The notes below the pieces were generated by a model. That model was given only the letters and a program-made list of their open reading frames with translations, was not told the DNA's origin and made no database searches. Positions 15,034 through 53,860 of a stretch of 64,000 nucleotides of DNA are shown here, one piece after another. Each line of letters begins with the position of its first letter. The first letter of the stretch is position 1. This stretch comes from Ilumatobacter fluminis (GTDB lineage Bacteria > Actinomycetota > Acidimicrobiia > Acidimicrobiales > Ilumatobacteraceae). Position numbers and translations under genes: made by a program. The stretch lies in assembly GCF_004364865.1 (NCBI RefSeq), contig NZ_SOAU01000001.1, forward strand, positions 3,318,001 to 3,382,000. Reading direction: 5' to 3'.

Positions 15034-15534
15034 TCAGCCCTCGATCAGGTCGAACAGGCCCTCGGGCGGATCGATCGTGACGACGACCGGGTCGGCGTCG
15101 CGATCGATGCCGGTGACGAACGTGGCCGGCACCAGCGCACCCGAGTCGAGTTCGAGCAGGTCGGCGGCCGGGTTGTCGATCACCGAGACGCAGCTGCCAC
15201 GGCGGGTGCCGTCGGTCTCGACCACGTCGGCACCGATGATGAGGTGGATCCAGAGCGCCTCGGCGTCGTCGATCGGCTCGGCGTAGAGGACCGCGCCGGT
15301 CAGTGCTTCGGCTTCGGTGCGACCGTCGACGCCGGTGAGGTGCACTCGGAAGCGACGGTTGGCCCGGTTCGAGCGTTCGATCGTGTACCAGGTGCCGCGT
15401 GCCCACAGCCGGGCCCCGACGTCGGCCCGTTCGGTGCGGTCGGTGGTGAGGTCGACGAACAGGTCGCCACGCACCCCGTGCGCCCGCCCCAACTTCCCGA
15501 CCTCCAACAACCCCTCCGGCACGACATCACGCAT
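15034..15534 (-). CDS. rimM: 16S rRNA processing protein RimM
   Basis: The 166-residue protein starts MRDVVPEGLLEVGKLGRAHG, the RimM N-terminal beta-barrel with the GVRGDL motif, and continues to a PRC-barrel domain (LWIHLIIGADVVETDGTRRG, then DNPAADLLELDSG). RimM helps mature the 30S head. The expected order rpsP-khpA-rimM-trmD is kept, but a 206-bp spacer separates khpA from rimM and holds a structured element, a strong hairpin and a degenerate palindrome. The downstream genes may therefore be controlled separately from rpsP. Confidence 0.93.
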   Translation of the reverse strand: MRDVVPEGLLEVGKLGRAHGVRGDLFVDLTTDRTERADVGARLWARGTWYTIERSNRANRRFRVHLTGVDGRTEAEALTGAVLYAEPIDDAEALWIHLIIGADVVETDGTRRGSCVSVIDNPAADLLELDSGALVPATFVTGIDRDADPVVVTIDPPEGLFDLIEG

Positions 15535-15549
15535 GCCCCCAAACGTACC

Positions 15550-15576
15550 GTCGGTTGGGGTCAGACCTCATCCCAC
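15550..15576. repeat. degenerate copy of the 27-bp GTCGGTTG palindrome
   Basis: The stretch GTCGGTTGGGGTCAGACCTC matches 17 of the first 20 positions of the perfect palindrome found twice at 24033-24115, but its right arm is decayed. It lies just upstream of the rimM start on the minus strand. The GTCAGAC/GTCTGAC centre is shared with REP-like palindromes of many genomes. Confidence 0.5.
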
Positions 15577-15588
15577 GAAAACGCAGAA

Positions 15589-15613
15589 TCCCGGACCCTC
15601 AACGGGTCCGGGA
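15589..15613 (-). terminator. strong hairpin, possible terminator/attenuator upstream of rimM
   Basis: TCCCGGACCC and GGGTCCGGGA form a perfect 10-bp GC-rich stem with a 5-nt loop. Read on the minus strand it is followed by a weak T-rich stretch (TTCTGCGTTTTCG), so it could terminate transcription coming from khpA before rimM. Confidence 0.6.
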
Positions 15614-15633
15614 CCTGGAACTTCTTCTGGTTT

Positions 15634-15740
15634 CCGCTCCGAGTCAGATCGTTCGAGCGCAAGGCAGGCGAGCCCCGAGTTGCCTTCCGGCAACGAGCGG
15701 GCGATGCCAACGCAGCGATCGGGCGATCTGGCCGGAGCGG
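15634..15740 (-). ncRNA. candidate structured RNA element, copy A (downstream of khpA)
   Basis: On the minus strand the element begins at the base after the khpA stop codon. The closing stem is CCGCTCC/GGAGCGG plus CAGATCG/CGATCTG around a small internal loop. It encloses the core CGCCCGATCGCTGCGTTG, then a hairpin GCCC-GTTGCC-GGAA-GGCAAC-TCG-GGGC with a GNRA-type loop. Copy B after the peroxiredoxin gene has the same core and the same architecture with different stem bases, so pairing is kept by compensating changes. A strong hairpin follows 20 nt later. No known RNA family was recognised. Confidence 0.5.
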
Positions 15741-15995
15741 TCAGTCCAAGAACTCGATGTCGAGCTCTACGCCGTCCTTGCTCGCCGCGGCTCGGGTGAC
15801 CGTGCGGATGCTCGCAGCGGTGCGGCCGCGACGGCCGATCACGCGACCGAGATCGCCGTCGGCGACACGGACGTCGAGACGGAGCTTGCCCTCGTCGGTG
15901 ACCTCGTCGACCGTGACCGAATCGGGATTGTCGACGATCGAGGTGACGATGTGGGTCAGGACGGCAACGGCGGTGGGTGCAGCCTGGTCGCTCAC
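15741..15995 (-). CDS. khpA: KH-domain RNA-binding protein KhpA
   Basis: The GTG at 15995 overlaps the rpsP stop (GTGA) and gives 84 residues, the usual KhpA/YlqC size. It carries the single KH fold with LRLDVRVADGDLGRVIGRRG (the GxxG loop appears as GRRG) and a final acidic strand VELDIEFLD. KhpA binds RNA with KhpB and affects cell size and division in Gram-positive bacteria. Its position between rpsP and rimM is the standard one. Confidence 0.92.
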   Translation of the reverse strand: MSDQAAPTAVAVLTHIVTSIVDNPDSVTVDEVTDEGKLRLDVRVADGDLGRVIGRRGRTAASIRTVTRAAASKDGVELDIEFLD

Positions 15996-16255
15996 TTGGC
16001 GGCCTTGTACTGCTCCATCGCGCCCGAGATCTCGAGCAGCTTGGCCACTCGCTCGGTCGGCTGGGCACCCTCGCTCAACCACTTCACGGCCTTGTCGTTG
16101 TCGACGGTGAGGCCGGAGGGCTCCTGACGGGGGTCGTAGTGACCGAGAATCTCGATGAAACGACCGTCGCGGGGCGAACGGGCGTCGGCCGCGACGATGC
16201 GGTACTGGGGCTGCTTCTTCTTGCCGACTCGTGTGAGGCGCAGCTTGACTGCCAT
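15992..16255 (-). CDS. rpsP: 30S ribosomal protein S16
   Basis: Starting at ATG 16255 the 87-residue protein reads MAVKLRLTRVGKKKQPQYRI and VAADARSPRDGRFIEILGHY, with DPRQEP and the helix VKWLSEGAQPTERVAKLL, all hallmarks of S16. It binds early in 30S assembly. It heads the khpA-rimM-trmD-rplS series. The 200 bp upstream separate it from a divergent plus-strand gene and probably contain both promoters. Confidence 0.96.
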   Translation of the reverse strand: MAVKLRLTRVGKKKQPQYRIVAADARSPRDGRFIEILGHYDPRQEPSGLTVDNDKAVKWLSEGAQPTERVAKLLEISGAMEQYKAAK

Positions 16256-18386: not shown

Positions 18387-18526
18387 CCGGGTCGGGTGAT
18401 CTCCCGAAACGTCGACTCCGTCGCCGTCCCGTACGACACCCGACCCGTTGGGTGGGTCCGCCGGGTCGGGTGTCGAAGGGAACGGCGAGGCGCAGCCGAG
18501 CCGTTTCCGGAGATCACCCGACCCGG
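18387..18526. repeat. 140-bp imperfect palindromic element upstream of ffh
   Basis: The outer arms CCGGGTCGGGTGATCTCC (18387-18404) and GGAGATCACCCGACCCGG (18509-18526) pair perfectly and extend inward to GAAACG/CGTTTC with one mismatch. A second nested pair GACACCCGACCC (18435-18446) and GGGTCGGGTGTC (18463-18474) sits in the centre. It fills the gap between the lipoprotein gene and ffh. The nested structure suggests a MITE- or REP-like sequence or a very long RNA hairpin. No coding capacity is seen. Confidence 0.7.
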
Positions 18527-18533
18527 TGCGCGG

Positions 18534-20486
18534 TCAGCACTCCCAGGGGTAGGTCTGTTCCTGGGTGGTGAGCCAGCGGTCGAGGTTGCCGCTGTCGGAG
18601 ACGAAGCGGGCGATGCCGTCCTCGTAGAGCACGAACGTGCCGATGTCGTCGCCGGGGCCCGGCTCGGCGACACGGGCGAACCCACTCGCCGCTGCGATCT
18701 CGAACGCATCGCGGTCGATCGTCGTCGCCGCTGCCCACAACTCGGGGGCGATGGTCTCGTCGATCGGGTACCAGAGCACACCGTCGAGGTCGAGGATCTC
18801 GTTGCCGCACGCCGGGTAGTACTCGACGCCTTCGACCACCTCGGTGATCGTCATCAGGGTCACACCGGGGATGTCGGTTTCACCGAGCAGGGTGCCGTCG
18901 TCGAGGGTCGCCCGCACGACGTACTCCGACCCGCCGTCACCCACGACGGCGACGTTCACCCGATCGGTCCGGAAGTCGTCCGTGACGGCGAGCGGCTCCC
19001 CGTTGCGTTCGACGACCCGCACCGTGAACCCGAGCGCTGAGGCAGTGTCGGTGTACTCGTCGAGGCTCATGCCGACGTTCGTGCCCAACCCGTCGGGAAC
19101 GACCGTCGCAGGCGGCTCGCCGGGCACGGTCGTGTCGACGGGGACCGGCTCGGCGGGAGCGGTCGTCGCCGGCGGATCGACCGGTTCGGGGGCCGGCTCC
19201 GTGACCGGCGGTTCGGTGGGCTCGGCCTGGATCAGGAACTCGTCGGTCACGGCGGGCACCGTGTACCAGCCGCCGTCGTCGCCGATGAACCGGTAGGCGG
19301 GCACGAGCCACGCAGAGCCGTCGGTGTCCCAGGCCCACCAGAGGTCGGGCTGGACGTCGACGAGGGTGACGGTGATCTCCTCGGGCTGGATCGTGTCGAC
19401 CGGGCCCTCGGGCACATCGACCGGCATCGGCTCCGACACCGCATCGTCCGTGACCGCGGCGTCGCTGCTCACGGCCTCGTCGAGCAGGGCCGGTTCGGCC
19501 CGGGGCAGGCCGCCCCACCCGCCGAAGGTCTGGTCCTCGAGGCGGGCGACGGCCGTGTCGAGGTCGATCAGCGGATATGGCCCGACCGGGGCGGGGGTGG
19601 CGCTGCTCCCCCACGCGTACTGGAGCTCGGCGTTCTCACCGAACGAGAAACCCCAGCTGCGGGCGCTGACACCGTCGATCTCTTCGCCGGCGGTGACGCT
19701 CGTCGTCCACTCGTCGGTGTAGGTCTCGAACGTGACGGTCGCTGTGTCGACGCCCATGGCGGCGAGCATGTCGGTCACCCGCTGCTCGGCGTCGGCTGCC
19801 GACGGCAGCCCGGTCGGCGGCTCGGGTTCGGGGCACGGCTCGACCGGGATCGTCTCGGGCACGGCGGAAACCACCGTGGTCTCGCCCTCGCCGAGCTCGA
19901 TCGTGTCGACGGTCTCGGGGTCGACGGCCGGCATCGCTGCGGTCTCGCAGGCGACCATCCCGGCGTCGCGTCCGGCCCAGCCCCAGTCGTAGCTCCACGA
20001 CTGCATGGCGTCGTCCCACAGCGTCATCGACGGGGCGGTGCCGTCGTCGGGGCCGACCCGCCAGTACACCGAGTAGCCGTCGTCGATCTGTTGGGCCTCG
20101 CCCTCGAGACCGAGTGCGGCGGCGATCGTCGCCGCGTCGGCGGCGGTCGGCATGCCGTTGGCGTCGAAGACGTAGCCGGTCGTGTTGTCGGGCAACGGCG
20201 GCAAGTCGCCGACCACGAAGTCGGCGATGACGTACGGGGCGATCATCATGTCGGTCGCCATGTCGGAGGCGGCGACCTCGACCGACGCTCCGGCAGTACG
20301 GGTGTCGGACGAGCCTCCGCCCGTCATCTGGATGGGTGACGGGGCACGGAGGCCGCCGTCGTCGGCCGTCGACGTCGTGTCGGGTGAGTCGATCGGGTCG
20401 GAGGACGAGTCGTCGCTGCCGCAGGCACTCAGGACGAGTGCGAGGGCCGCGGTGACGGGGACGAAACGCGTGAGGTGGTTGCGCAT
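18534..20486 (-). CDS. large secreted lipoprotein with I78-like C-terminal region
   Basis: A lipoprotein signal (FVPVTAALALVLSACGS) anchors this 650-residue protein outside the membrane. The body is acidic and contains a Pro/Thr/Glu-rich linker near residues 415-460 (EPPVTEPAPEPVDPPATTAP). After the linker, GMSLDEYTDTASALGFTVRV and VTDDFRTDRVNVAVVGD match the RVV...V-T-x-D-x-R-x-D-R-x-N-V pattern of potato inhibitor I / I78 protease-inhibitor folds. The N-terminal half has no family I recognise. It stands between ftsY and ffh, which is not a usual place for a lipoprotein. Function is unknown. Confidence 0.8.
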   Translation of the reverse strand: MRNHLTRFVPVTAALALVLSACGSDDSSSDPIDSPDTTSTADDGGLRAPSPIQMTGGGSSDTRTAGASVEVAASDMATDMMIAPYVIADFVVGDLPPLPDNTTGYVFDANGMPTAADAATIAAALGLEGEAQQIDDGYSVYWRVGPDDGTAPSMTLWDDAMQSWSYDWGWAGRDAGMVACETAAMPAVDPETVDTIELGEGETTVVSAVPETIPVEPCPEPEPPTGLPSAADAEQRVTDMLAAMGVDTATVTFETYTDEWTTSVTAGEEIDGVSARSWGFSFGENAELQYAWGSSATPAPVGPYPLIDLDTAVARLEDQTFGGWGGLPRAEPALLDEAVSSDAAVTDDAVSEPMPVDVPEGPVDTIQPEEITVTLVDVQPDLWWAWDTDGSAWLVPAYRFIGDDGGWYTVPAVTDEFLIQAEPTEPPVTEPAPEPVDPPATTAPAEPVPVDTTVPGEPPATVVPDGLGTNVGMSLDEYTDTASALGFTVRVVERNGEPLAVTDDFRTDRVNVAVVGDGGSEYVVRATLDDGTLLGETDIPGVTLMTITEVVEGVEYYPACGNEILDLDGVLWYPIDETIAPELWAAATTIDRDAFEIAAASGFARVAEPGPGDDIGTFVLYEDGIARFVSDSGNLDRWLTTQEQTYPWEC

Positions 20487-21801: not shown

Positions 21802-22431
21802 ATGTCCATCCGTCTCGGCGACGAAGCCCCCAACTTCACCGCGGTCACCACCGAGGGTGAGATCACGTTCCACGACTGGAAGGACGGCTCGTGGGCCGTG
21901 CTGTTCAGCCATCCTGCCGACTTCACCCCGGTGTGCACGACCGAACTCGGTCGCACCGCCGCGCTGAAGGACGACTTCGGCAAGCGCAACACGAAGGCGA
22001 TTGCCGTGTCGGTCGACCCGATCGAGGACCACCACGGTTGGGCTCCCGACATCGGCGAGGTCGGCGGCACCGACCTCAACTTCCCGATCATCGCCGACCC
22101 CGAGCGCGCCGTGTCGGAGGCGTACGACATGATCCACCCGGGCGAGGGCGACACGTCGACCGTCCGCTCGGTGTTCGTCATCGACCCGAGCAACAAGGTC
22201 CGCCTGACGCTCACCTACCCCAAGTCGGTGGGTCGCAACTTCGACGAGATCGTGCGTGTGATCGACGCCCTCCAGGCCACCGACGCCGCCCCGATCGCCA
22301 CCCCCGCCGACTGGCGCCCCGGCGACCGCGTCATCGTGTCGCCCGCCATGTCGACCGAGGACGCCAAGGCCAAGCTCCCCAACGTCGAGGAAGTCAAGCC
22401 CTACCTCCGCTACGCCGACCAACCCTCCTGA
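21802..22431 (+). CDS. 1-Cys (Prx6-type) peroxiredoxin
   Basis: The 209-residue enzyme has the peroxidatic motif HPADFTPVCTTELGRTAALK, the long C-terminal dimer domain of the Prx6 subfamily (DWRPGDRVIVSPAMSTEDAK), and no obvious resolving cysteine. It reduces peroxides in the cytoplasm. ATG 21802 follows GAGGGAGTACCCCA, a fair ribosome site. It is transcribed away from ftsY across about 147 bp. A candidate structured RNA and a strong hairpin follow its stop codon directly. Confidence 0.92.
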   Translation: MSIRLGDEAPNFTAVTTEGEITFHDWKDGSWAVLFSHPADFTPVCTTELGRTAALKDDFGKRNTKAIAVSVDPIEDHHGWAPDIGEVGGTDLNFPIIADPERAVSEAYDMIHPGEGDTSTVRSVFVIDPSNKVRLTLTYPKSVGRNFDEIVRVIDALQATDAAPIATPADWRPGDRVIVSPAMSTEDAKAKLPNVEEVKPYLRYADQPS

Positions 22432-22433
22432 GT

Positions 22434-22517
22434 CGGCCCGGTTCGCCCGATCGCTGCGTTGACGTCACGTCTGATTTCGCAGACTCGTGGCGCACAGTCG
22501 TAGCGAAGACCGAGCCG
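22434..22517 (+). ncRNA. candidate structured RNA element, copy B (downstream of peroxiredoxin)
   Basis: The element starts 3 nt after the peroxiredoxin stop. The closing stem is CGGC-C-CGGT-TCGC pairing with GCGA-AG-ACCG-A-GCCG. It encloses the core CGCCCGATCGCTGCGTTG, identical to copy A, and a hairpin GTCA-C-GTCTG-ATTTCG-CAGAC-TCG-TGGC. The hairpin and outer stem differ from copy A base by base but keep pairing, including a conserved TCG on the 3' side of the internal loop. A GC-rich hairpin follows 4 nt later. Confidence 0.5.
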
Positions 22518-22521
22518 CGCC

Positions 22522-22557
22522 GAGCCCCGGGTCCCCCTCGTCGAGGGCCCGGGGCTC
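22522..22557. terminator. GC-rich hairpin between convergent genes
   Basis: GAGCCCCGGG (22522-22531) pairs with CCCGGGGCTC (22548-22557). It lies between the peroxiredoxin gene and the convergent spermidine-synthase-like gene, so it may terminate in either direction. No T-tract is present on the plus side. Confidence 0.6.
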
Positions 22558-24032: not shown

Positions 24033-24115
24033 GTCGGTTGATGTCAGACATCAACCGACAGGCCGTTCACGCTCGCCCGGCAACACCCGTCGGTTGATGT
24101 CTGACATCAACCGAC
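24033..24115. repeat. pair of perfect 27-bp palindromes
   Basis: Each unit is GTCGGTTGATGTC, one central base, then GACATCAACCGAC (24033-24059 with central A; 24089-24115 with central T), so the two are the same element in opposite orientation, 29 bp apart. They fill the gap between smc and the flavoprotein gene. They could be operators, a terminator, or REP-like repeats; a decayed copy sits at 15550. Confidence 0.85.
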
Positions 24116-24118
24116 ACG

Positions 24119-27100
24119 TCACCTGGAGGTGGCGGTGCCGGCTTTCTCGGTGACGACCTTGCTGCTGCCGCCGGGTTGCATGCTCACGCCGAGCAGGCTG
24201 TCGCCGGCCTCCATCGTGCGCTTCTGGTGCGACACGATGACCAGCTGGGCGTCCTTGCGGAACTCGTTGATGAGTCCGAGGAAGCGGTGCAGGTTGACGT
24301 CGTCGAGCGCGGCCTCGACCTCGTCCATCACGTAGAACGGCGACGGGCGGCTGCGGAACACGGCGAACAGGAACGCGAGCGCGGTGAGGCTGCGCTCACC
24401 ACCCGACAGCAGTGACAGCTTCTTCACGTTCTTGCCGCTCGGCTTGGCCTCGACCTCGATCCCGGTGTTGAGCAGGTCGTCGGGCACCGTCAGCTTCAAC
24501 TTGCCGGAGCCACCGGGGAACAGGGTCGAGAACAGGTTCGTGAAGTTCTCGCTCACGTCGGCGAACGCCGACGCGAACACCGTCTGGATCTCCTGGTCGA
24601 CCGCCTTGATGACCCGGCTGAGTTCGCGACGCGTCGACCGGACGTCTTCGAGCTGTTCCTCGAGGAACGTGTGCCGCTGCTGCAGCTCGTTGTATTCCTC
24701 GAGCGCGAGCGGGTTGATCGGTCCGAGCAGTCGGAGTTCGCGATCGAGTTCACGCACCCGACCGGCCGCCGTGGCACCCTCGGGCAGCTCGGGCTGCTCC
24801 GCCGCCTCGGCAATCTCGGGCTCGACGTCGAGGTCTCGGCGGAGGGTCTCGACGGCCGTCTCGAGTCGGAGCTTGGCCTCGGCCTCTTCGACCTCCGACC
24901 GGTGCAGCTTGTGCCGCAGCTCTTCGAGGCGGCGCTCGGCGTCGGAGCGGCCCTTGCGGGCGGAGTCGAGCGCCGTGGTGAGGCCGCGCACCTCTTCGCT
25001 CTGGCGACGGCGTCGGGCGACGAGGTCGTCGTGCTCCACCTCGATCACCGAACGGTGGGTGTCGACCAGCGTGGCGAGCCGGTCGATGGCGACGATCGCC
25101 TTCTCGACCTGGACCCGGCGCTCGGCGGCGAGCGCACGCGCCTCCTTGTCGGCCTCGAGGCGTCGTTCGGTCTCGGCGATGCGGTTCTCGAGCAGCTGCT
25201 TGCGTTCGTGCAGGCCGGCGTTGCGCACTTCGAGTTCGCGACGACGCGATGCCAGCACGGCGGCGCGGGCCTCGAGTTCGGCGCGGGCTTCGCCGCGTGC
25301 TTTGGCCGCGTCGGCCTCGGCCTGTTCCTCGGCATCGAGCGCCGGCAGCACCGCTTCGAGTTCGGCGATGCGAGTCTGCTCGCCGTCGATCAGGGTCGTC
25401 AGCTCCTCGATCGAACGATCCAGGTTGTCGCATTCGGCGGCGGCCTCACGACGCTGACCGAGCACACGCGACAGGCCCTCCGACGCAGCGGTGAAGCGAG
25501 CATCGTTCTGGTCGAGCTGGCGGGTGAGGTCGGCTTCGGTCTGACGAGCGGCCGACTGCCGTTCCTTCGCCCCGCGCAGCGCCTCGTCAGCGGTGGCGAG
25601 GGCTCGGGTGCACTGTTCGGCTCGCTCCTGCGCGTCGGCCAGCGCGGCGGCGGTGGCGCCGCCGGCCGCGGCGCCGACGCGCCAGCCGGTCGGGGCGAAG
25701 CGATCGCCGGTGGCGGTGACGATGACGGCCCCGGGGTGCTCGATGGCCGCCGACACGGCGGCGTCGACCGAGTCGACCCGGACGGCGCCGGCGATCAAGG
25801 CCTCGAGCAGCCCGCTCACGCCGGGACGGCCGGAGCGCACGTGCGGCAGCACCGGGTCGCCGACCGGCGGCGGGGTGATCGAACCGTGACGTCCGCCGGC
25901 GGCCAGGACCGCACCGCTGGTGTCGGACGACTGGAGCGCTTCGAGTGCCCGCTGTGCCGCCTCGGGGTTCTCGACGACGACGGCGGTGAGGGCCTCGCCG
26001 AGCGATGCCTCGACGGCTTCCTGCCAGCCTTGGTCGATCTCGACGAGGTCGAGCAGGGTGCCGAGCACCCCGTCGACGCCGGCGAGTCGTTCGGCGCCGG
26101 CGCGGGCGTGCGCCGCGTCGAGCGCGAGCTGCAACGCCTCGACGCGGGCCGAGGCCCGCGACGACGCCTCGTTGGCGTCGGCACGTTCGGTGGTGAGCCG
26201 CTCCACGTCGGCGTCGGCCTCGACACGTTCCTGCTCTGCGGCGGCGATCTGGTCGACCAGCGGCGACTCGACCGACTCGGCCTGGGCGCAATCGGCCCGC
26301 AGGCGCTCGGTATCGGCCTCGAGTTGTTCGATCCGACCCGTCAACTCTTCGCGGCGCGTCGTGGCGCGGCGGCGCTCGCTCTCGCTGCGTTCGACGCCGC
26401 TGCGGATCGAGCGCAGCTCGCCACGCACTTCGGCGGCGGCGCTGGCCGCCTTGGCGCTGCTCTTCTCGTTCTCGAACAGGGTCGGCGCGATCTTCTCGCG
26501 CTCCTCGCGAAACGCCGCTTCGTCGGCTTCGAGCTGCTCGGATTCGGGCTGGACCTGACCGAGTGCCTCTTCGACCTCGTCGAGTTCGGCAGCGAACTTG
26601 GCCGCGTCACCTTCGAGGTTGGCGACCACACCGGCGTCGAGCAGTGAGCCCTTGTCGCGTTCGAGCGACCGCTTGCGCTCGACCAGCACGGCGGCGAGGC
26701 CGCGGGCGCGCTCGCGGAGCTGCTCGACCTGCATCAGGCGGTCGGCGACGTCGCTCTCGCCGCGGGCCGACAACTCGGCTTCGAGCGACATGATCTCGGT
26801 GTCGAGGCGGGCCAGTTCGGTCTTGAGCTCGCCTTCGAGTCGTCCGGCGTCGAGACGGTCGGCGGCGATCGACTCGAGCTTGGTGCGCAGCCCGGCGATC
26901 TCACGCCCGGCGACGAACACACGCAGTGTCTGGAGTTCGACGACGATCTCGCCGTGGCGGCGAGCAGCCTCCGCCTGGCGTTCGAGCGGCCGCAGCTGGC
27001 GCCGGACCTCACGCAAGAGGTCTTGCAGGCGCAGCAGGTTGGCCTCGGTCGCGTCGAGGCGGCGCTCGGCCTTCTCCTTGCGACGGCGGAACTTGAGCAC

Positions 27101-27598
27101 GCCGGCGGCCTCTTCGATGATCCCGCGACGATCCTCGGGGCGGGCGTTGAGCACCGCGTCGATCTGGCCCTGGCTGACGATCACGTGCTGCTGGCGTCCG
27201 ACGCCGGCGTCGGAGAGCAACTCCTGGATGTCGAGGAGGCGACACGGGGCGCCGTTGATCATGTATTCGCTGTCGCCGGAGCGGAACAGGACACGGGTGA
27301 TCGTGACCTCGTTGAACTCGACGGGCAACAGGCCGGACGTATTGTCGAGGGTCAGGCCGACCTCGGCGCGACCGAGGGCGGGGCGCTTCTCGGTTCCGGC
27401 GAAGATCACGTCGTCCATCTTCTGGGAGCGGACCGACTTGGGTGCCTGGGCGCCGAGCACCCACGCGATCGCGTCGACGACGTTCGACTTCCCGGAGCCG
27501 TTCGGGCCGACGACCACGGTCACCCCGGGTTCGAGGTGCATGTTGGTGGCGTCGGCGAACGACTTGAAGCCCTTGAGGGTGAGGCTCTTCAAAAACAC
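24119..27598 (-). CDS. smc: chromosome segregation ATPase SMC
   Basis: The 1159-residue protein begins MFLKSLTLKGFKSFADATNM with Walker A VVVGPNGSGKSNVVDAI, has two long coiled coils, a hinge at about 510-650 (AGVDGVLGTLLDLVEIDQGW and its glycine-rich GGRHGSITPPPVGD region), and the C-terminal ABC signature KKLSLLSGGERSLTALAFLF and Walker B PFYVMDEVEAALDDVNLHRF. It organises and segregates the chromosome with ScpAB. It follows mutM and rnc, the order seen in many Gram-positives, and precedes ftsY. Confidence 0.97.
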   Translation of the reverse strand: MFLKSLTLKGFKSFADATNMHLEPGVTVVVGPNGSGKSNVVDAIAWVLGAQAPKSVRSQKMDDVIFAGTEKRPALGRAEVGLTLDNTSGLLPVEFNEVTITRVLFRSGDSEYMINGAPCRLLDIQELLSDAGVGRQQHVIVSQGQIDAVLNARPEDRRGIIEEAAGVLKFRRRKEKAERRLDATEANLLRLQDLLREVRRQLRPLERQAEAARRHGEIVVELQTLRVFVAGREIAGLRTKLESIAADRLDAGRLEGELKTELARLDTEIMSLEAELSARGESDVADRLMQVEQLRERARGLAAVLVERKRSLERDKGSLLDAGVVANLEGDAAKFAAELDEVEEALGQVQPESEQLEADEAAFREEREKIAPTLFENEKSSAKAASAAAEVRGELRSIRSGVERSESERRRATTRREELTGRIEQLEADTERLRADCAQAESVESPLVDQIAAAEQERVEADADVERLTTERADANEASSRASARVEALQLALDAAHARAGAERLAGVDGVLGTLLDLVEIDQGWQEAVEASLGEALTAVVVENPEAAQRALEALQSSDTSGAVLAAGGRHGSITPPPVGDPVLPHVRSGRPGVSGLLEALIAGAVRVDSVDAAVSAAIEHPGAVIVTATGDRFAPTGWRVGAAAGGATAAALADAQERAEQCTRALATADEALRGAKERQSAARQTEADLTRQLDQNDARFTAASEGLSRVLGQRREAAAECDNLDRSIEELTTLIDGEQTRIAELEAVLPALDAEEQAEADAAKARGEARAELEARAAVLASRRRELEVRNAGLHERKQLLENRIAETERRLEADKEARALAAERRVQVEKAIVAIDRLATLVDTHRSVIEVEHDDLVARRRRQSEEVRGLTTALDSARKGRSDAERRLEELRHKLHRSEVEEAEAKLRLETAVETLRRDLDVEPEIAEAAEQPELPEGATAAGRVRELDRELRLLGPINPLALEEYNELQQRHTFLEEQLEDVRSTRRELSRVIKAVDQEIQTVFASAFADVSENFTNLFSTLFPGGSGKLKLTVPDDLLNTGIEVEAKPSGKNVKKLSLLSGGERSLTALAFLFAVFRSRPSPFYVMDEVEAALDDVNLHRFLGLINEFRKDAQLVIVSHQKRTMEAGDSLLGVSMQPGGSSKVVTEKAGTATSR

Positions 27599-29499: not shown

Positions 29500-29573
29500 G
29501 GCCGCAAGCCTACCCACCGCCCCCGCCCGGGTCACCGAACCGATGCTGCGCCGGCGCCTCCCCCACCCCGAGC

Positions 29574-29842
29574 GGACGCCCAGGCGATTAAATCCACCAG
29601 GCGTCCACCGGTGGACACCCAGGCGATTCAATCCACCACGAGTCCGGGCCACCGACCACGGCACCACCCCGAGCGGACGCCCAGGCGATTAAATCCACCA
29701 GGCGTCCACCGGTGGACACCCAGGCGATTTAATCGACCAGGAGTCCGGGTCACCGACCACGGCACCACCCCGAGCGGACGCCCAGGCGATTAAATCCACC
29801 AGGCGTCCACCGGTGGACGCCCAGGCGATTTAATCGACCAGG
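29574..29842. repeat. six 28-bp iterons with alternating spacers
   Basis: Copies of GGACGCCCAGGCGATTAAAT plus CCACCAGG start at 29574, 29613, 29675, 29714, 29776 and 29815, so start-to-start distances are 39, 62, 39, 62, 39 bp. The higher-order period is 101 bp, repeated three times counting the last partial unit. Each iteron has an AT-rich palindromic core GATTtAATC in a very GC-rich setting, and the pairs meet across GGCGTCCACCGGTGGACGCC, a 20-bp palindrome in the last copy. The array fills the intergenic space between acpP and the propeller-protein gene. No gene is seen in it. Confidence 0.9.
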
Positions 29843-29850
29843 AGTCCGGG

Positions 29851-31755
29851 TCAGGAGAAGGCGTCGGTGGTGATGGTCGGGGTCGACGCCTCGGGTGGGA
29901 GCCAGACCCGGAGGCGATCGCCGGTCGCCTCGAACAGCACGCCACCGTCGAGGCGGGTCCAGATGTAGTCGCCGGCGCCGCAGCACTCGTTGAAGAAGAT
30001 GTCGTCCTGCGGCCAGGCGGCGACCGCGACGTCGTCCACCCGCTCGCCGGTGCGGAGGTCGATCAGCTCCCAGCCGACATCCGCCGTGACGATCCCACGG
30101 TTCCCGTCGAGGGCGGCGAAGGCCTGCCCGCCCGGACGACTCCACAGCCGCTCGCCGGTCTCGAGATCGAACGCCACCAGCTGCTCGTCGGGCGGTGTGT
30201 TCTCGTCGAGCCACTGGCACCCGGCGCCGTCGGTCCAGGTCAGGCACTCCATGACGAGCGCGACCGAGCCGGAGACCGCCGACGCGAAGCCCTCACGACT
30301 GATGTGATGGAAACCAGGTTCGGACCAGACGACATCACCGGCACCGTCGAGGAGCTCGAGCACCGAGTCCTCGCCGTACGGGATCCGGAGCGTCGGCGGC
30401 AGCGACCGGAGATCGTCGGGGTCGCTCGACCAGGCCTCGCCGGTCCACACGGTCTCCGGCAGACTGCCGTCGATGGGCGTCGCGGCAACCAGGAGCGCGC
30501 CGTCGCCCTCGATGAGTTCGTAGCGCACCCGGTCGGACGGCGTTCCGATTGCGACGTCCGGGTACGGGATGTCGGTCGCGGTAAAGCCGTCCAGATCGAT
30601 GACGCCGAGGCGGCTGTCGGCATCGATGACGCCGGCGTCCCAGGGAACACCGACGAGGACGCGGTCGCCGAGAATCCCGTCGATCGTCCGGTCACCGGTG
30701 CTGAACGGTGGCGAGAAGTCGGCACCGGTCGAGAGGTCGAACGGCAGCAGCAGCGCCTCCCCGTCACCGGCGGCGAGCCAGAGCTGTCGCCCGGCCGGGA
30801 CGAGCGCCCTCGGCCAACCGACGCCCTCGAGGCAGCGTCGCCACCTGACGGCGCCGTCGAGATCGACGACCTCGACGGTGATCGCGTCGGTGCCGTCAAG
30901 GGACTGTCCGTAGAGCGTCAGCGCCACGCCACCCGGGACCACGACAGGAGACAGGAGTGGGGATTCGCTGCCGTTGCGCGTCTCGATCGTCGGGACCCCC
31001 AGGTCGAGCGTCGGCTCGGCGCCGACCGTCGTGAACTGGGTGAGGGCCTGGTCGATCGAACCGAGGGTTGCGGCACCACTCGTTCGTTCGACACAGTCCG
31101 GGTTCCACGCCGCGACGACCTCGCCATCGACCATGTCGGGCACGTTGTCGGGCACGGTGTCGGGCGGCGGCGCCGCCGTCTCCGGCGACACTGCGACCGT
31201 CAGCTCGACCACCGAGCCCGTCGGGACGAGCGATCCCGGCGCTGCATCGACGTCTCCGAGCACCGACCAGCCGAGCACGACGTCGTGCCCGGCCGTCTCG
31301 TCGACGACTTCCACGAGCTGGAACCTCAGCCCGACCGCCTGCAGGTCCTCGATCGCAAGGCCGGCCGGCATGCCGGTCCAGTCCGACAGCTCGACCAGGT
31401 CGTCTGCGATCGTCGACTCGGGAGGCTCGGTGGGCGATACCACCGGCAATGACACGGTGGTGTCGGGCGGCGGCATGGTGGCATCCGGTGTGGTGGCCGG
31501 CGTCGGGGCGCTGTCGTTGCCCGATCGGACCGAGACGGCCACGGCTGCGACCGCGACGAGGGCGACGGCGGCGGCAGCCATGAACCAGGTGGCCGGTGAC
31601 CGGCGCGAGCTGGCCGACGATGACGAGCCGAGCTCGGCGCCGTCGGCGCGGCGGGTGATGTCGTCCCACTGGTCGGGCACGGCGACGGCGTCGAATGCGT
31701 CGAGCCCCATCCGATCCAGGGCGTGCTCGTCGGGCCGGTCGGGCTGGTCGCTCAT
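29851..31755 (-). CDS. membrane-anchored beta-propeller protein with PASTA-like domain, sigma-factor partner
   Basis: ATG 31755 overlaps the sigma-factor stop (ATGA), giving 634 residues. Residues 1-55 are cytoplasmic, 56-77 a transmembrane helix (TWFMAAAAVALVAVAAVAVS), then a Thr/Pro linker. Residues 120-190 resemble a PASTA domain (WTGMPAGLAIEDLQAVGLRF with V-x-G-S-V-V-E-L-T-V), and the remainder is a PQQ/quinoprotein-like propeller (VVDLDGAVRWRRCL, VAFDLETGERLWSRPGGQAF, WELIDLRTGERVDDV). The cytoplasmic part lacks a clear anti-sigma zinc motif. The layout implies an extracellular sensor tied to the sigma factor. Confidence 0.8.
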   Translation of the reverse strand: MSDQPDRPDEHALDRMGLDAFDAVAVPDQWDDITRRADGAELGSSSSASSRRSPATWFMAAAAVALVAVAAVAVSVRSGNDSAPTPATTPDATMPPPDTTVSLPVVSPTEPPESTIADDLVELSDWTGMPAGLAIEDLQAVGLRFQLVEVVDETAGHDVVLGWSVLGDVDAAPGSLVPTGSVVELTVAVSPETAAPPPDTVPDNVPDMVDGEVVAAWNPDCVERTSGAATLGSIDQALTQFTTVGAEPTLDLGVPTIETRNGSESPLLSPVVVPGGVALTLYGQSLDGTDAITVEVVDLDGAVRWRRCLEGVGWPRALVPAGRQLWLAAGDGEALLLPFDLSTGADFSPPFSTGDRTIDGILGDRVLVGVPWDAGVIDADSRLGVIDLDGFTATDIPYPDVAIGTPSDRVRYELIEGDGALLVAATPIDGSLPETVWTGEAWSSDPDDLRSLPPTLRIPYGEDSVLELLDGAGDVVWSEPGFHHISREGFASAVSGSVALVMECLTWTDGAGCQWLDENTPPDEQLVAFDLETGERLWSRPGGQAFAALDGNRGIVTADVGWELIDLRTGERVDDVAVAAWPQDDIFFNECCGAGDYIWTRLDGGVLFEATGDRLRVWLPPEASTPTITTDAFS

Positions 31756-32420: not shown

Positions 32421-33545
32421 ATGACTTTCCGACGACGCGTCGTCCCGACTCTGGCCGCCGGCCTGTTGCTGTTCACCGCCGCATGCGGTGGTGATGACGA
32501 CGATGCCGGCACCGACGCCGAACCCGTCGAGGAGACCGAGACGTCCGAAGCCCCCGCCGAGGAGACCGAGTCGTCCGAGGCCCCCGCCGAGGAGACCGAG
32601 TCGACCGAGGCCCCCGCCGAGGAGACCGAGTCGACCGAGGCCCCCGCCGAGGAGACCGAGTCGGCCGAGGCCGGCACGGTCGTCGTTGCCGACTACTACG
32701 GCGAGGTCGAGGTGCCGCTCGATGCGGAGCGCATCGTGCTCACCGACAACCGCCTCGTCCGCTCGTTCGACGACTGGGGTGTCGAGCTCGTCGCAGCGCC
32801 GCTCGAGATCTTCCCCGACAGCATCTCGTACCAGTCGAACGACGACGTCGCCGACCTCGGCAACCACGGTGAGCCCAACCTCGAGACGTTCGTGGCCGCC
32901 GATCCCGACCTGGTCTTCACCGGCTACCGCTTCTCGACGTTCTACGAGGACATCACCGAGCTCGTCCCGGACGCGACCGTCGTGAGCACCGACTTCGACC
33001 TCGACGAGGCCGATCCGGTGGGTCCCCTCGTCGACCAGCTCCTCATGGCCGGCGCTGCACTCGGTCACGAGGACGAGGCGCAGGCCACCGTCGACGAGCT
33101 GTACGCGGCGATCGACGCCGCCAAGGCCGCCTACGACCCGTCGGAGACCGTCATGGGTCTGATCACCTCTGGCGGCGACATCGGATACGTCGCCCCGGTC
33201 AACGGTCGCGCCATCGGCCCGCTGTTCCCGGTGCTCGGCCTGACCCCCGCCATCGAACAGGACGGCGACAGCGGCCACACCGGTGACGACATCTCGGTCG
33301 AGGCGATCGCTGCGGCCAACCCCGACTGGATCATCGTCCTCGACCGCGACGCGTCGTTCGCCGACACGCTCGACGTCTACACCTCGGCCGAAGAGGTGCT
33401 GTTCGGCTCGGAGGCGCTCGCCAACGTGACCGCCATCGTCGAAGGCAACGTGGTCTACCTGCCGGCCGACTTCTACCTCACCGAGGACGTCATGGCCTAC
33501 ACCCAGGTGATCAACGACTTCGCCGACGCCGTCGCCGCGGACTGA
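32421..33545 (+). CDS. iron-siderophore ABC transporter substrate-binding lipoprotein
   Basis: A lipobox (AAGLLLFTAACGG) is followed by an acidic linker of about 60 residues built from near-identical units (APAEETESSE, APAEETESTE), then a Fe-siderophore binding domain: TVVVADYYGEVEVPLDAERI, VAADPDLVFTGYRFSTFYED, AAANPDWIIVLDRDASF and NVTAIVEGNVVYLPADFYLT. It captures ferric chelates outside the membrane for the two permeases and ATPase that follow. The linker DNA is a 30-bp tandem repeat and may vary in copy number. Confidence 0.9.
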   Translation: MTFRRRVVPTLAAGLLLFTAACGGDDDDAGTDAEPVEETETSEAPAEETESSEAPAEETESTEAPAEETESTEAPAEETESAEAGTVVVADYYGEVEVPLDAERIVLTDNRLVRSFDDWGVELVAAPLEIFPDSISYQSNDDVADLGNHGEPNLETFVAADPDLVFTGYRFSTFYEDITELVPDATVVSTDFDLDEADPVGPLVDQLLMAGAALGHEDEAQATVDELYAAIDAAKAAYDPSETVMGLITSGGDIGYVAPVNGRAIGPLFPVLGLTPAIEQDGDSGHTGDDISVEAIAAANPDWIIVLDRDASFADTLDVYTSAEEVLFGSEALANVTAIVEGNVVYLPADFYLTEDVMAYTQVINDFADAVAAD

Positions 33546-51902: not shown

Positions 51903-53699
51903 ATGGCAGCAACCACGTCGAACGAACGTCTCGAGGCGTGGGTGGACGAGTGGGCGGAGATCCTCCAGCCCGACGACATCTACTGGTGCGACGGCTCCGC
52001 CGAGGAATACGACCGACTCGCGCAGTCGCTGGTCGACTCCGGCACGTTCACCCGCCTCGACGAGGCGAAGCGCCCGAACAGCTACTGGGCCCACTCCGAC
52101 CCGGGTGACGTCGCCCGCGTCGAAGACCGCACGTTCATCTGCTCGGCCACCGAGGAAGAAGCCGGGCCCAACAACAACTGGCGCGATCCCGACGAGATGC
52201 GGGCGGAGATGAAGCGGCTCTACTCGGGAGCCATGCAGGGTCGCACGATGTACGTGATCCCGTTCTCGATGGGCCCGCTCGGCTCGCCGATCGCCCATAT
52301 CGGCGTGCAGTTGAGCGACTCGGCGTACGTCGCCACGAACATGCGGATCATGACCCGCATGGGACAGGGCGCGCTCGACGTCCTCGGCTCCGACGGTGAG
52401 TTCGTGCCGTGCGTCCATTCCGTCGGTGCTCCCCTCGCCGACGGTGAGGCCGACGTGCCGTGGCCGTGCGACGCCGAGAACAAGTACATCGTGCACTTCC
52501 CCGAGACGCGCGAGATCATGTCGTACGGATCCGGCTACGGCGGCAACGCCCTGCTCGGCAAGAAGTGCTTCGCGCTGCGCATCGCCTCGGTGATGGCCCG
52601 CGACGACGGCTGGCTCGCCGAGCACATGCTGATCCTGAAGCTCACGAACCCGGATGGTGAGTCGAAGTACATCGCCGCCGCGTTTCCGTCGGCGTGCGGC
52701 AAGACGAACCTGGCGATGTTGGTGCCGACCATCCCCGGCTGGAGCGCCGAGACGATCGGCGACGACATCTGCTGGATGAAGTTCGGCGACGACGGACGCC
52801 TCTACGCGATCAACCCCGAGGCCGGATTCTTCGGGGTCGCGCCCGGCACCGGTTACGACACCAACGCCAACGCGATGCGGGCGCTCGAACCGGGCAACTG
52901 CATCTACACCAACACGGCGCTCACCGACGACGGCGACGTCTGGTGGGAGGGCATCGGCGGCGACGCTCCGGCGCACCTGACCGACTGGAAGGGCAACGAC
53001 TGGACCCCCGACGCCGACACGCCGGCGGCACACCCCAACGCACGCTTCACCGCGCCGGCCGACCAGAATCCCGTGTGCGCCCCCGAATGGGAAGACCCGA
53101 AGGGTGTGCCGATCTCGGCGATCCTGTTCGGCGGTCGTCGCCGTACCACGGTGCCGTTGGTGACCGAGGCGTTCGATTGGGAGCACGGCGTGTTCCTCGG
53201 CTCGATCATGGCGTCGGAGAAGACAGCCGCTGCCGAGGGCTCGCTCGGCGAGCTTCGCTTCGACCCGATGGCGATGCTGCCGTTCTGCGGGTACAACTAC
53301 GCCGACTACTTCGCCCACTGGCTGACGATCGGCAAGGCGACCGACCCGAACAACCTGCCGAAGATCTTCTTCGTGAACTGGTTCCGGCGCGACGACGACG
53401 GTCGGTTCCTGTGGCCCGGGTTCGGTGAGAACAGCCGGGTGCTGAAGTGGGTGTTCGAGCGCTGCGACGGTCAGTCCGAGGTGACCGACACGCCCATCGG
53501 TCGACTCCCGACCAAGGACGCACTCGACCTCGACGGGCTCGACATCGACGACGCCGATCTCGACGCGATCCTGTCGGTCGACGCCGATGGCTGGAAGGCG
53601 GCGATCCCGCAGATCCGCGAGCACTACGCCAAGTTCGGCGACAAGCTCCCGGCCCAGCTCCAGATGGCCGTCGACACGCTCGAGGCGCAGCTCTCGTAG
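51903..53699 (+). CDS. pckG: phosphoenolpyruvate carboxykinase (GTP)
   Basis: The 598-residue enzyme matches GTP-type PEPCK throughout: [40 protein letters not shown], the kinase-1a loop [20 protein letters not shown] with the reactive cysteine, [20 protein letters not shown], and [20 protein letters not shown]. It makes PEP from oxaloacetate for gluconeogenesis. The leader (about 200 bp) contains a GCGATC-GATCGC hairpin (51756-51776). Its last codons and stop form the first unit of a 23-bp tandem repeat. Confidence 0.97.
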
Positions 53700-53831
53700 T
53701 CAGCACGGCGCAGCTCTCGTAGTCAGCACGGCGCAGCTCTCGTATTCAGCACGGCGCAGCTCTCGTAGTCAGCACGGCGCAGCTCTCGTAGTCAGCACGG
53801 CGCAGCTCTCGTAGCACGGCGCAGCTGCGCC
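53684..53831. repeat. 23-bp tandem repeat grown from the end of pckG
   Basis: The unit GGCGCAGCTCTCGTAGTCAG plus CAC occurs in tandem from 53684: five full copies (one with T for G at the third), a 19-bp copy lacking GTCA at 53799, and a final fragment GGCGCAGCTGCGCC. The first unit contains the pckG C-terminal AQLS codons and the TAG stop, so the array arose by duplication of the gene end. It is non-coding after the stop. Confidence 0.92.
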
Positions 53832-53860
53832 TCGACGTCGACGACCTGACGACTCGGAGA

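Follow-up and report, generated by a model that had tools for sequence, protein, structure and literature searches.

Stop-Codon-Anchored, REP-Like Hairpin Repeats in Ilumatobacter and the Concerted Change of Their Arms

Introduction

What kind of element is the long hairpin that directly follows the khpA stop codon in Ilumatobacter fluminis, and does it serve its neighboring genes as an RNA or belong to a dispersed class of repeats? The hairpin lies in a 64,000-nt stretch of genomic DNA, here called the window, in which a second copy follows a peroxiredoxin gene. From these two copies, A and B, the original prediction had proposed a conserved regulatory or stand-alone RNA and a possible attenuation of rimM-trmD-rplS. 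About 100 copies have now been collected from several dozen sites, and as many of these sites are orthologous between species, the family offers an arm-by-arm test of how long hairpins stay paired.

Two Copies in the Window

Copy A forms a 110-nt hairpin on the minus strand, which is the strand of khpA, and its first two bases are the last two of the khpA stop codon (TGA, 15743-15741). The features of both copies are compiled in Table 1. The stems named beforehand for copy A are present, with the arms of the apical hairpin, GTTGCC and GGCAAC, at 15679-15684 and 15689-15694, and a strong hairpin has been seen by eye behind each copy, as described. Copy B starts at a stop codon as well (peroxiredoxin TGA, 22429-22431), and the exact sequence said to be common to both copies has been confirmed as the 18-mer CGCCCGATCGCTGCGTTG, which is located at 22444-22461 of the plus strand in copy B and has exactly three sites in the 4.78-Mb genome, the third one at genome position 3987112. 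When copy A is used as a nucleotide query against this genome, nine additional sites are returned at E ≤ 0.012, and copy B ranks last among these.

Table 1. Features of copies A and B and their surroundings in the window.
Feature	Position	Strand	Basis
Copy A, whole element (model positions 1-110)	15633..15742	minus	R1 match, 118.9 bits; among the nine model-building copies
Outermost helix, 5' arm CCGCTCCG, directly 3' of khpA stop; partner 15634-15641	15733..15740	minus	fold, pair counts
Outermost helix, 3' arm CGGAGCGG	15634..15641	minus	fold, pair counts
Second helix, 5' arm CAGATCG; partner 15645-15651	15724..15730	minus	sequence, fold, pair counts
Second helix, 3' arm CGATCTG	15645..15651	minus	sequence, fold, pair counts
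Conserved 5' motif CGCCCGATCGCTGCGTTG, common to copies A and B	15708..15725	minus	exact matches
Conserved 3' motif CCTTGCGCTCGA	15653..15664	minus	copy alignments
Apical hairpin GTTGCC-GGAA-GGCAAC	15679..15694	minus	fold, pair counts; covaries strongly
khpA, upstream gene of copy A	15741..16046	minus	Pfam KH_KhpA-B
rimM, downstream gene of copy A	15034..15534	minus	Pfam RimM
Terminator-like hairpin distinct from copy A, CCCGGACCC...GGGTCCGGG plus tail ATTCTGCGTTTTCG, standing between copy A and rimM	15576..15612	minus	by eye; conserved in G003, G004
Copy B, decayed member behind peroxiredoxin gene	22427..22528	plus	R1, 18.8 bits, E 0.05 in window; shared 18-mer; L174 orthologue
Peroxiredoxin (AhpC/TSA) gene, upstream of copy B	21802..22431	plus	Pfam AhpC-TSA
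Strong hairpin GAGCCCCGGG...CCCGGGGCTC behind copy B	22519..22554	plus	by eye

Compared with shuffled sequences, copy A folds with a z-score of −3.9 on the minus (mRNA) strand and −6.0 on the plus strand. The fold of copy B is clear on the plus (mRNA) strand only (−4.1, with −1.8 on the minus strand), and copy B is, unlike most copies, the better folder as mRNA. It is also marginal to the covariance model R1 introduced below (E 0.05 in the window, 3.7 in the whole genome). We have nevertheless taken it as a decayed member of the family because the orthologous gene in genome G005 bears a clear R1 copy at the same place (locus L174, 57.9 bits, E 3 × 10−10), the C-terminal end of the upstream protein reading NVEEVKPYLRWADQPS in G005 and NVEEVKPYLRYADQPS at copy B. 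Copy B and locus L021 have a variant apex, and a pattern written for it matches this genome once, at L021 itself.

Several further repeats and hairpins have been noticed in the window. An SMC-like gene (24119-27598, minus) is followed, 3' of its stop codon, by two near-identical perfect palindromes (GTCGGTTGATGTCAGACATCAACCGAC) at 24033-24116, with a weaker relative at 15550-15577, and the G003 gene that has the C-terminal end of the SMC-like gene is followed by a khpA-type element instead (L144). A long nested hairpin of unrelated outer sequence at 18387-18526, with 22 net paired positions in a 25-nt arm, starts 7 nt behind the stop codon of a gene at 18534-20486 (minus). Three tandem 101-nt units, each palindromic, extend over 29563-29865; tandem 23-nt repeats (GGCGCAGCTCTCGTAGTCAGCAC) at 53661-53836 include the stop codon of the gene at 51903-53699 and continue beyond it, and tandem 15-nt and 30-nt repeats at 1528-1782 and 32493-32672 are situated inside predicted reading frames.

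A Dispersed Family of Diverged Copies

R1, a covariance model of 110 positions, has been built from nine aligned copies of this genome, in which it matches 13 places at E ≤ 1.8 × 10−5, including the nine that built the model. In the nine-copy alignment 90.8% of the cells of a 36-pair structure are paired, as against 30-38% with the partners slid by 1-3 columns, a comparison that favors the structure over its slid versions, since it was derived from the same nine sequences. Changes on both sides have been found in 21 of the 36 pairs, and the earlier claim that compensating changes occur in several helices beyond chance has held.

Homologues had been expected in related genomes, and a covariance-model search has found them. 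At E ≤ 0.1 R1 matches 16 of 61 relatives and, within the genus, nine of ten genomes with 4-30 matches each (this genome included in both counts); the sole genus genome lacking a match is 1.3 Mb in size and 74% complete. Outside the genus, G021, which belongs to a sister genus of the same family, has 13 matches and G026 has three, the others being weak. Among a draw of 296 genomes of the class seven match at E ≤ 1 × 10−4, and among 296 genomes of the phylum four match at E ≤ 0.001; weak copies may be missed in these large searches because stricter filters were used. A strict sequence pattern that recognizes 35 of the 110 copies in our collection has returned 23 stretches from a named genome collection, and all of the records are titled Ilumatobacter, Acidimicrobiaceae or Acidimicrobiia.

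The counts given below derive from 115 R1 matches at 99 loci, from which five reverse-strand readings of palindromic copies were dropped to leave 110 copies; most matches span all 110 model positions. Removal of ten tandem secondary copies left 100 first copies for the stop-codon count, and 99 remained for the arm, coding-overlap, folding-parameter, motif and T-tract counts after a copy beside an assembly gap had been dropped. Sufficient flank for the strict terminator count was available for 98, the arm and coding-overlap counts were further reduced to 97 by dropping copies without an upstream ORF of 40 aa, and the pair-position table comprises 82 copies with a mutual identity below 85%. The G021 copies stand outside all of these sets.

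Copies within one genome have a median identity of 54-70% (58% in this genome), although two G004 copies behind different genes are 95% identical. Given that divergence prevails and that a genome contains few copies (13 here), recent spread is rare. Tandem copies at several loci differ in the 5' arm and keep the 3' arm. By eye, a CGGTGGGGCGG stretch recurs 40-60 nt behind many copies (L177, L178, L190, L113, L167, L169, L174), apparently left over from the 5' arm of an additional tandem copy.

Nine weak R1 matches in G016, G035, G040, G049, G212, G258 and G259 have proved to be palindromes with the core CGCKGCGTT...CCTTGC and other outer arms, found in other genera of the order and class (L202, L203, L087, L088, L089, L101, L228, L229, L230). 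The template-side strand is the better folder in all nine, and only one of them lies within −10 to +20 nt of a sense stop codon, so a larger group of dispersed palindromes may exist of which the stop-anchored family is one branch.

Anchoring at Stop Codons

For 94 of 100 first copies, the start falls in the interval −10 to +20 nt relative to the stop of a sense-oriented ORF of at least 75 aa, compared with 23 of 100 for the opposite strand and 146 of 2000 random positions (7.3%); in G021, 12 of 13 copies are found at a sense stop codon (ORF of at least 60 aa). A preference for TGA has been considered and dropped, the difference between 87/94 copies and 42/50 genes of the window being too small to claim. 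The upstream genes of 97 first copies fall into 54 groups. According to Pfam they include rplI, rplQ, khpA, rpsJ, ahcY and genes for peroxiredoxin, aldehyde dehydrogenase and thiolase in this genome, and rpsO, a pheS-like gene, ilvC, clpP, rpmB and dnaN in relatives; as only 33 upstream proteins were scanned, three of them among the seven proteins scanned from the window, and these were partly picked by eye, no enrichment is claimed.

A place directly behind stop codons is also what a non-canonical transcription terminator would occupy, a long stem acting without a T tract, and at most loci no other terminator is seen, since a strict rule recognizes a classic terminator-like site within 140 nt of only 13 of 98 copies (controls 1/98, 1/98 and 0/95). 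The same count overturns the impression, gained by eye, that a terminator always follows. An intrinsic terminator has been rejected, with TTT in the first 10 nt behind none of 99 copies and at least four T in the first 8 nt behind two of 99; the missing TTT weighs against the non-canonical form too. By eye, moreover, a separate terminator follows at khpA, rplQ and rpsJ. Because a start codon lies within 75 nt behind the pheS-like gene in a relative, the element is not only an operon end and need not terminate a transcription unit. Termination is consequently regarded as a quite improbable role.

Orthologous sites differ in whether they carry a copy. In the nine genus genomes in which khpA was found, inspection by eye has placed the element behind it in five (G000, G002 with two copies of which the first is shortened, G003, G006 and G009) and has found it absent from four, G004 and G005 having only a terminator-like hairpin and G008 and G001 having rimM directly behind khpA. 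At rplQ the element is present in G000, G002, G003, G004 and G006, and it is absent from G009, where a terminator-like hairpin remains; absence is claimed for G009 only, as a loose motif matched the wrong gene elsewhere (G000, G001, G006 and G008 among others). The proposal that the element attenuates rimM-trmD-rplS had its basis in the position between khpA and rimM. It has become highly improbable, since copies sit behind 54 groups of upstream genes, the khpA site is empty in four of nine genomes, and an independent terminator-like hairpin separates the element from rimM.

Concerted Change of the Arms

In the outermost arms 851 of 949 positions form Watson-Crick pairs with their own partner, compared with 1013 of 1647 with the partner of the orthologous copy in another species and 52% with that of a random copy. 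Across the helix positions of 83 orthologous copy pairs, 1501 were the same, 578 had a double Watson-Crick change, 54 had changed to or from G-U, 86 to or from C-A, and 146 otherwise; the 83 pairs overlap, so that these figures are counts and not independent events. Two-step compensatory changes usually pass through G-U, as described in the work on template switching (PMC8794818). Of the double changes observed here, 362 of 578 are of a type without a G-U path, equal use of the three alternatives being expected to give two thirds.

Among copies with closely similar cores, some pairs show this pattern and others do not. At rplQ the 68-nt core is identical in G000 and G003, and yet four of 17 arm pairs differ on both sides while still pairing, a fifth differs on both sides and has lost its pairing in one of the two copies, and one-sided differences are absent. 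In the peroxiredoxin copies of the same two genomes, the cores of which are 97% identical, seven double changes stand beside three one-sided ones. Among the nine closest-core pairs four lack any double change, and the two outer helices together hold 21 doubles, 4 changes to G-U, 7 to C-A and 8 others, where 14 of the doubles stem from the G000 peroxiredoxin copy being counted twice (against G003 and G004).

At rpsJ the difference includes the last sense codon, which reads AGC in G000 and G004 but GGC in G006, with a corresponding difference in the 3' arm. Overlap with coding sequence does not hold as a general rule, as the terminal helix includes at least two coding bases in 36 of 97 copies and at least four in 21 of 97, against 56% and 39% with swapped arms, and exceeds this control only at six or more (15/97 versus 9.7%). 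The overlap therefore rests on single cases such as rpsJ and rplQ. In 46 of 97 copies all three bases of the stop codon are paired (33% with swapped arms).

Conserved pairing with compensatory changes, as expected of a structured RNA, is thus present, but the pattern of the changes is unusual: the covariation is massive and yet not of the usual RNA kind. It may still be read as the trace of selection on an RNA fold, i.e., of a cis-acting structured 3'-UTR RNA evolving stepwise on the mRNA strand. Such a role would suit the sense orientation and the place behind stop codons, the both-sided changes in 21 of 36 pairs, the conserved unpaired motifs GCTGCGTT and CCTTGC, the upstream genes, among them those for ribosomal proteins L9, L17, S10, S15 and L28 and for KhpA, and one pair (30/81) that is G-U on the mRNA strand in 73 of 82 copies. 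We find it doubtful nonetheless, given that changes involving G-U (54) are fewer than those involving C-A (86) and rare beside 578 doubles, and that the template strand folds better in most copies. The arms have changed in the pattern that template switching or gene conversion would leave. Template switching has been argued both to create and to maintain RNA hairpins (PMC8794818).

Which Strand Folds

Folding energies separate the two strands clearly, although the asymmetry varies along the stem. Only 12 of 110 copies fold better as the mRNA strand, with mean energies of −59.3 kcal/mol for the mRNA and −67.0 kcal/mol for the template strand; under DNA parameters 94 of 99 copies favor the template strand, and under RNA parameters all 22 of the more distant copies do so. 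In the table of 82 copies, the pairs 12/99, 18/93, 19/92, 20/91, 21/90 and 22/89, which were picked after the table had been viewed, contain C-A 148 times and G-U three times. At the remaining helix positions G-U (47) prevails over C-A (28). Two pairs of the loop, 29/82 and 30/81, are G-U on the mRNA strand in 29 and 73 copies and C-A in none.

These observations invite the idea of a mobile single-stranded DNA hairpin, similar to REP/RAYT systems or attC sites, the active form of which would be the template strand inserting behind stop codons. Its strength lies in the folding counts, in the C-A excess at the six chosen pairs and in the related palindromes elsewhere in the class. The six pairs were, however, selected post hoc, and the remaining helix positions and the two loop pairs point the other way. 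Y1_Tnp genes exist in eight of ten genus genomes, but G009 has none despite its 20 R1 matches, and four Y1_Tnp loci searched with R1 (in G003, G001, G008 and G005, this genome not being among them) contain no copy. As the core motifs of attC are found in none of 99 copies and no target-site duplication has been established, we consider a mobile hairpin of this type unlikely.

Origin and Possible Effect of the Repeat

Part of the original prediction stands, in that the secondary structure is conserved. A regulatory or stand-alone RNA is doubtful, because G-U changes are rare, most copies fold better as the template strand, and the family's dispersal, its tandem arrays and its presence or absence between species fit a REP-like DNA repeat. 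We favor with moderate confidence the explanation that the family, present in Ilumatobacter and close relatives, is a REP-like palindrome whose arms are rewritten together at the DNA level and which becomes a strong hairpin at the stop codon once transcribed. Its copies sit directly 3' of stop codons and keep one orientation relative to the gene upstream. Their arms would stay complementary for the most part because one arm is copied into the other at the DNA level, either by template switching in the hairpin or by gene conversion between copies, and not only through slow selection on single changes. A survey of Y1_Tnp in the genus genomes and the search of four such loci have revealed no mobilizing enzyme tied to the copies, which counts against this explanation. 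Also against it stand the rarity of recent spread, the weaker folding of the mRNA strand in most copies, the overlap among the orthologous pairs compared, the close pairs lacking double changes, and a coding overlap of the helix that does not exceed the swapped-arm control at 2 or 4 nt. A more specific version, in which a hairpin repeat that settles at stop codons has its outer arms co-rewritten by hairpin-templated DNA synthesis, the last codons are copied into the far arm at some loci, and the template strand is the one that folds, is put forward tentatively as a possibility.

In the mRNA of the upstream gene the REP-like repeat would fold into a highly stable hairpin where the reading frame ends, and this hairpin may act in cis, most likely, if E. 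coli REPs are taken as the model, by shielding the 3' end from exonucleases and by slowing ribosomes at the stop codon. Should the hairpins act on mRNA in this way, they would give the core genes of a little-studied actinobacterial group (those for ribosomal proteins and peroxiredoxins, khpA, ahcY) a 3'-end signal in common. The mode of arm change has a bearing of its own: if double changes are templated, covariation alone is no proof of a functional RNA, which concerns covariance-model searches in general, and if the reading of a stop-settling, DNA-templated repeat is true, the strong covariation would stem from templating of DNA and not from selection for an RNA, and covariation-based RNA discovery would be misled.

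Comparison With Known Systems

At gathering scores Rfam 15 has no match in the window, and at permissive E-values 12 loci have yielded only weak, chance-like matches, none of them at an element, so the Rfam search suggested earlier has not assigned it to any family. A sensitive blastn search of plasmids and phages with copy A has returned no match, and no description of the repeat family has been found in the literature, mainly in freely accessible papers.

Liang, Rudd and Deutscher reportedly described in 2015 E. coli REP elements within 15 nt of stop codons. Like these stop-codon REPs, the Ilumatobacter repeats are palindromic, dispersed, placed closely 3' of stop codons and able to form a hairpin in the mRNA. 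Unlike E. coli REPs they are about 110 nt long with a conserved core and several helices, they have no REP tag, and they occur with 4-30 matches per genus genome. As reported in PMC12306157, 446 of 4,072 predicted E. coli REPs are located within 15 nt of a stop codon, whereas 94 of 100 copies of the Ilumatobacter type are stop-anchored in one orientation; in the same report, REPs less than 16 nt from the stop codon lower translation. mRNAs bearing REP structures are, according to a review, targets of RNase R acting together with PNPase (PMC12320835). The copy number also sets the family apart, as REPs are described as usually exceeding 100 copies per genome (PMC2817692), compared with 13 here and 4-30 in matching genus genomes. 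REPs tagged with GTAG or CGTC, in the account of PMC3733652, are 20-40 bp long with an unpaired tag, and their termini can supply a TAG stop codon. The present repeats resemble them as dispersed palindromes able to abut or overlap coding ends, but the 5' foot is GTAG in three of 99 copies and CGTC in six of 99, and the length is 110 positions, so that an assignment to tagged REPs as characterized there has been rejected (PMC3733652).

Other likenesses are of a more general nature. The attC sites of integrons have the core motifs RYYYAAC and GTTRRRY at their two ends. In their general features they share with the repeats the place behind stop codons, the orientation with the gene, a structure kept while the sequence varies, and a template-side strand that folds; an attC site has been rejected, the two motifs occurring together, in either order, in none of 99 copies, which moreover lie behind core genes and not cassettes. 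The MIRU repeats of mycobacteria are oriented repeats at stop codons and are sometimes tandem, and on this general description alone the Ilumatobacter repeats, likewise set at stop codons, oriented and sometimes tandem, can be likened to them. In the manner of their change they come close to the template-switched hairpins of PMC8794818, in which multi-base compensatory changes arise together and the 3' arm can equal a reverse-complement copy; those are, as presented there, RNA genes followed by ancestral reconstruction, whereas here a dispersed repeat beside protein genes is known from pairwise counts. In its behavior the family belongs with the REP-like dispersed palindromes, and yet it is a family of its own.
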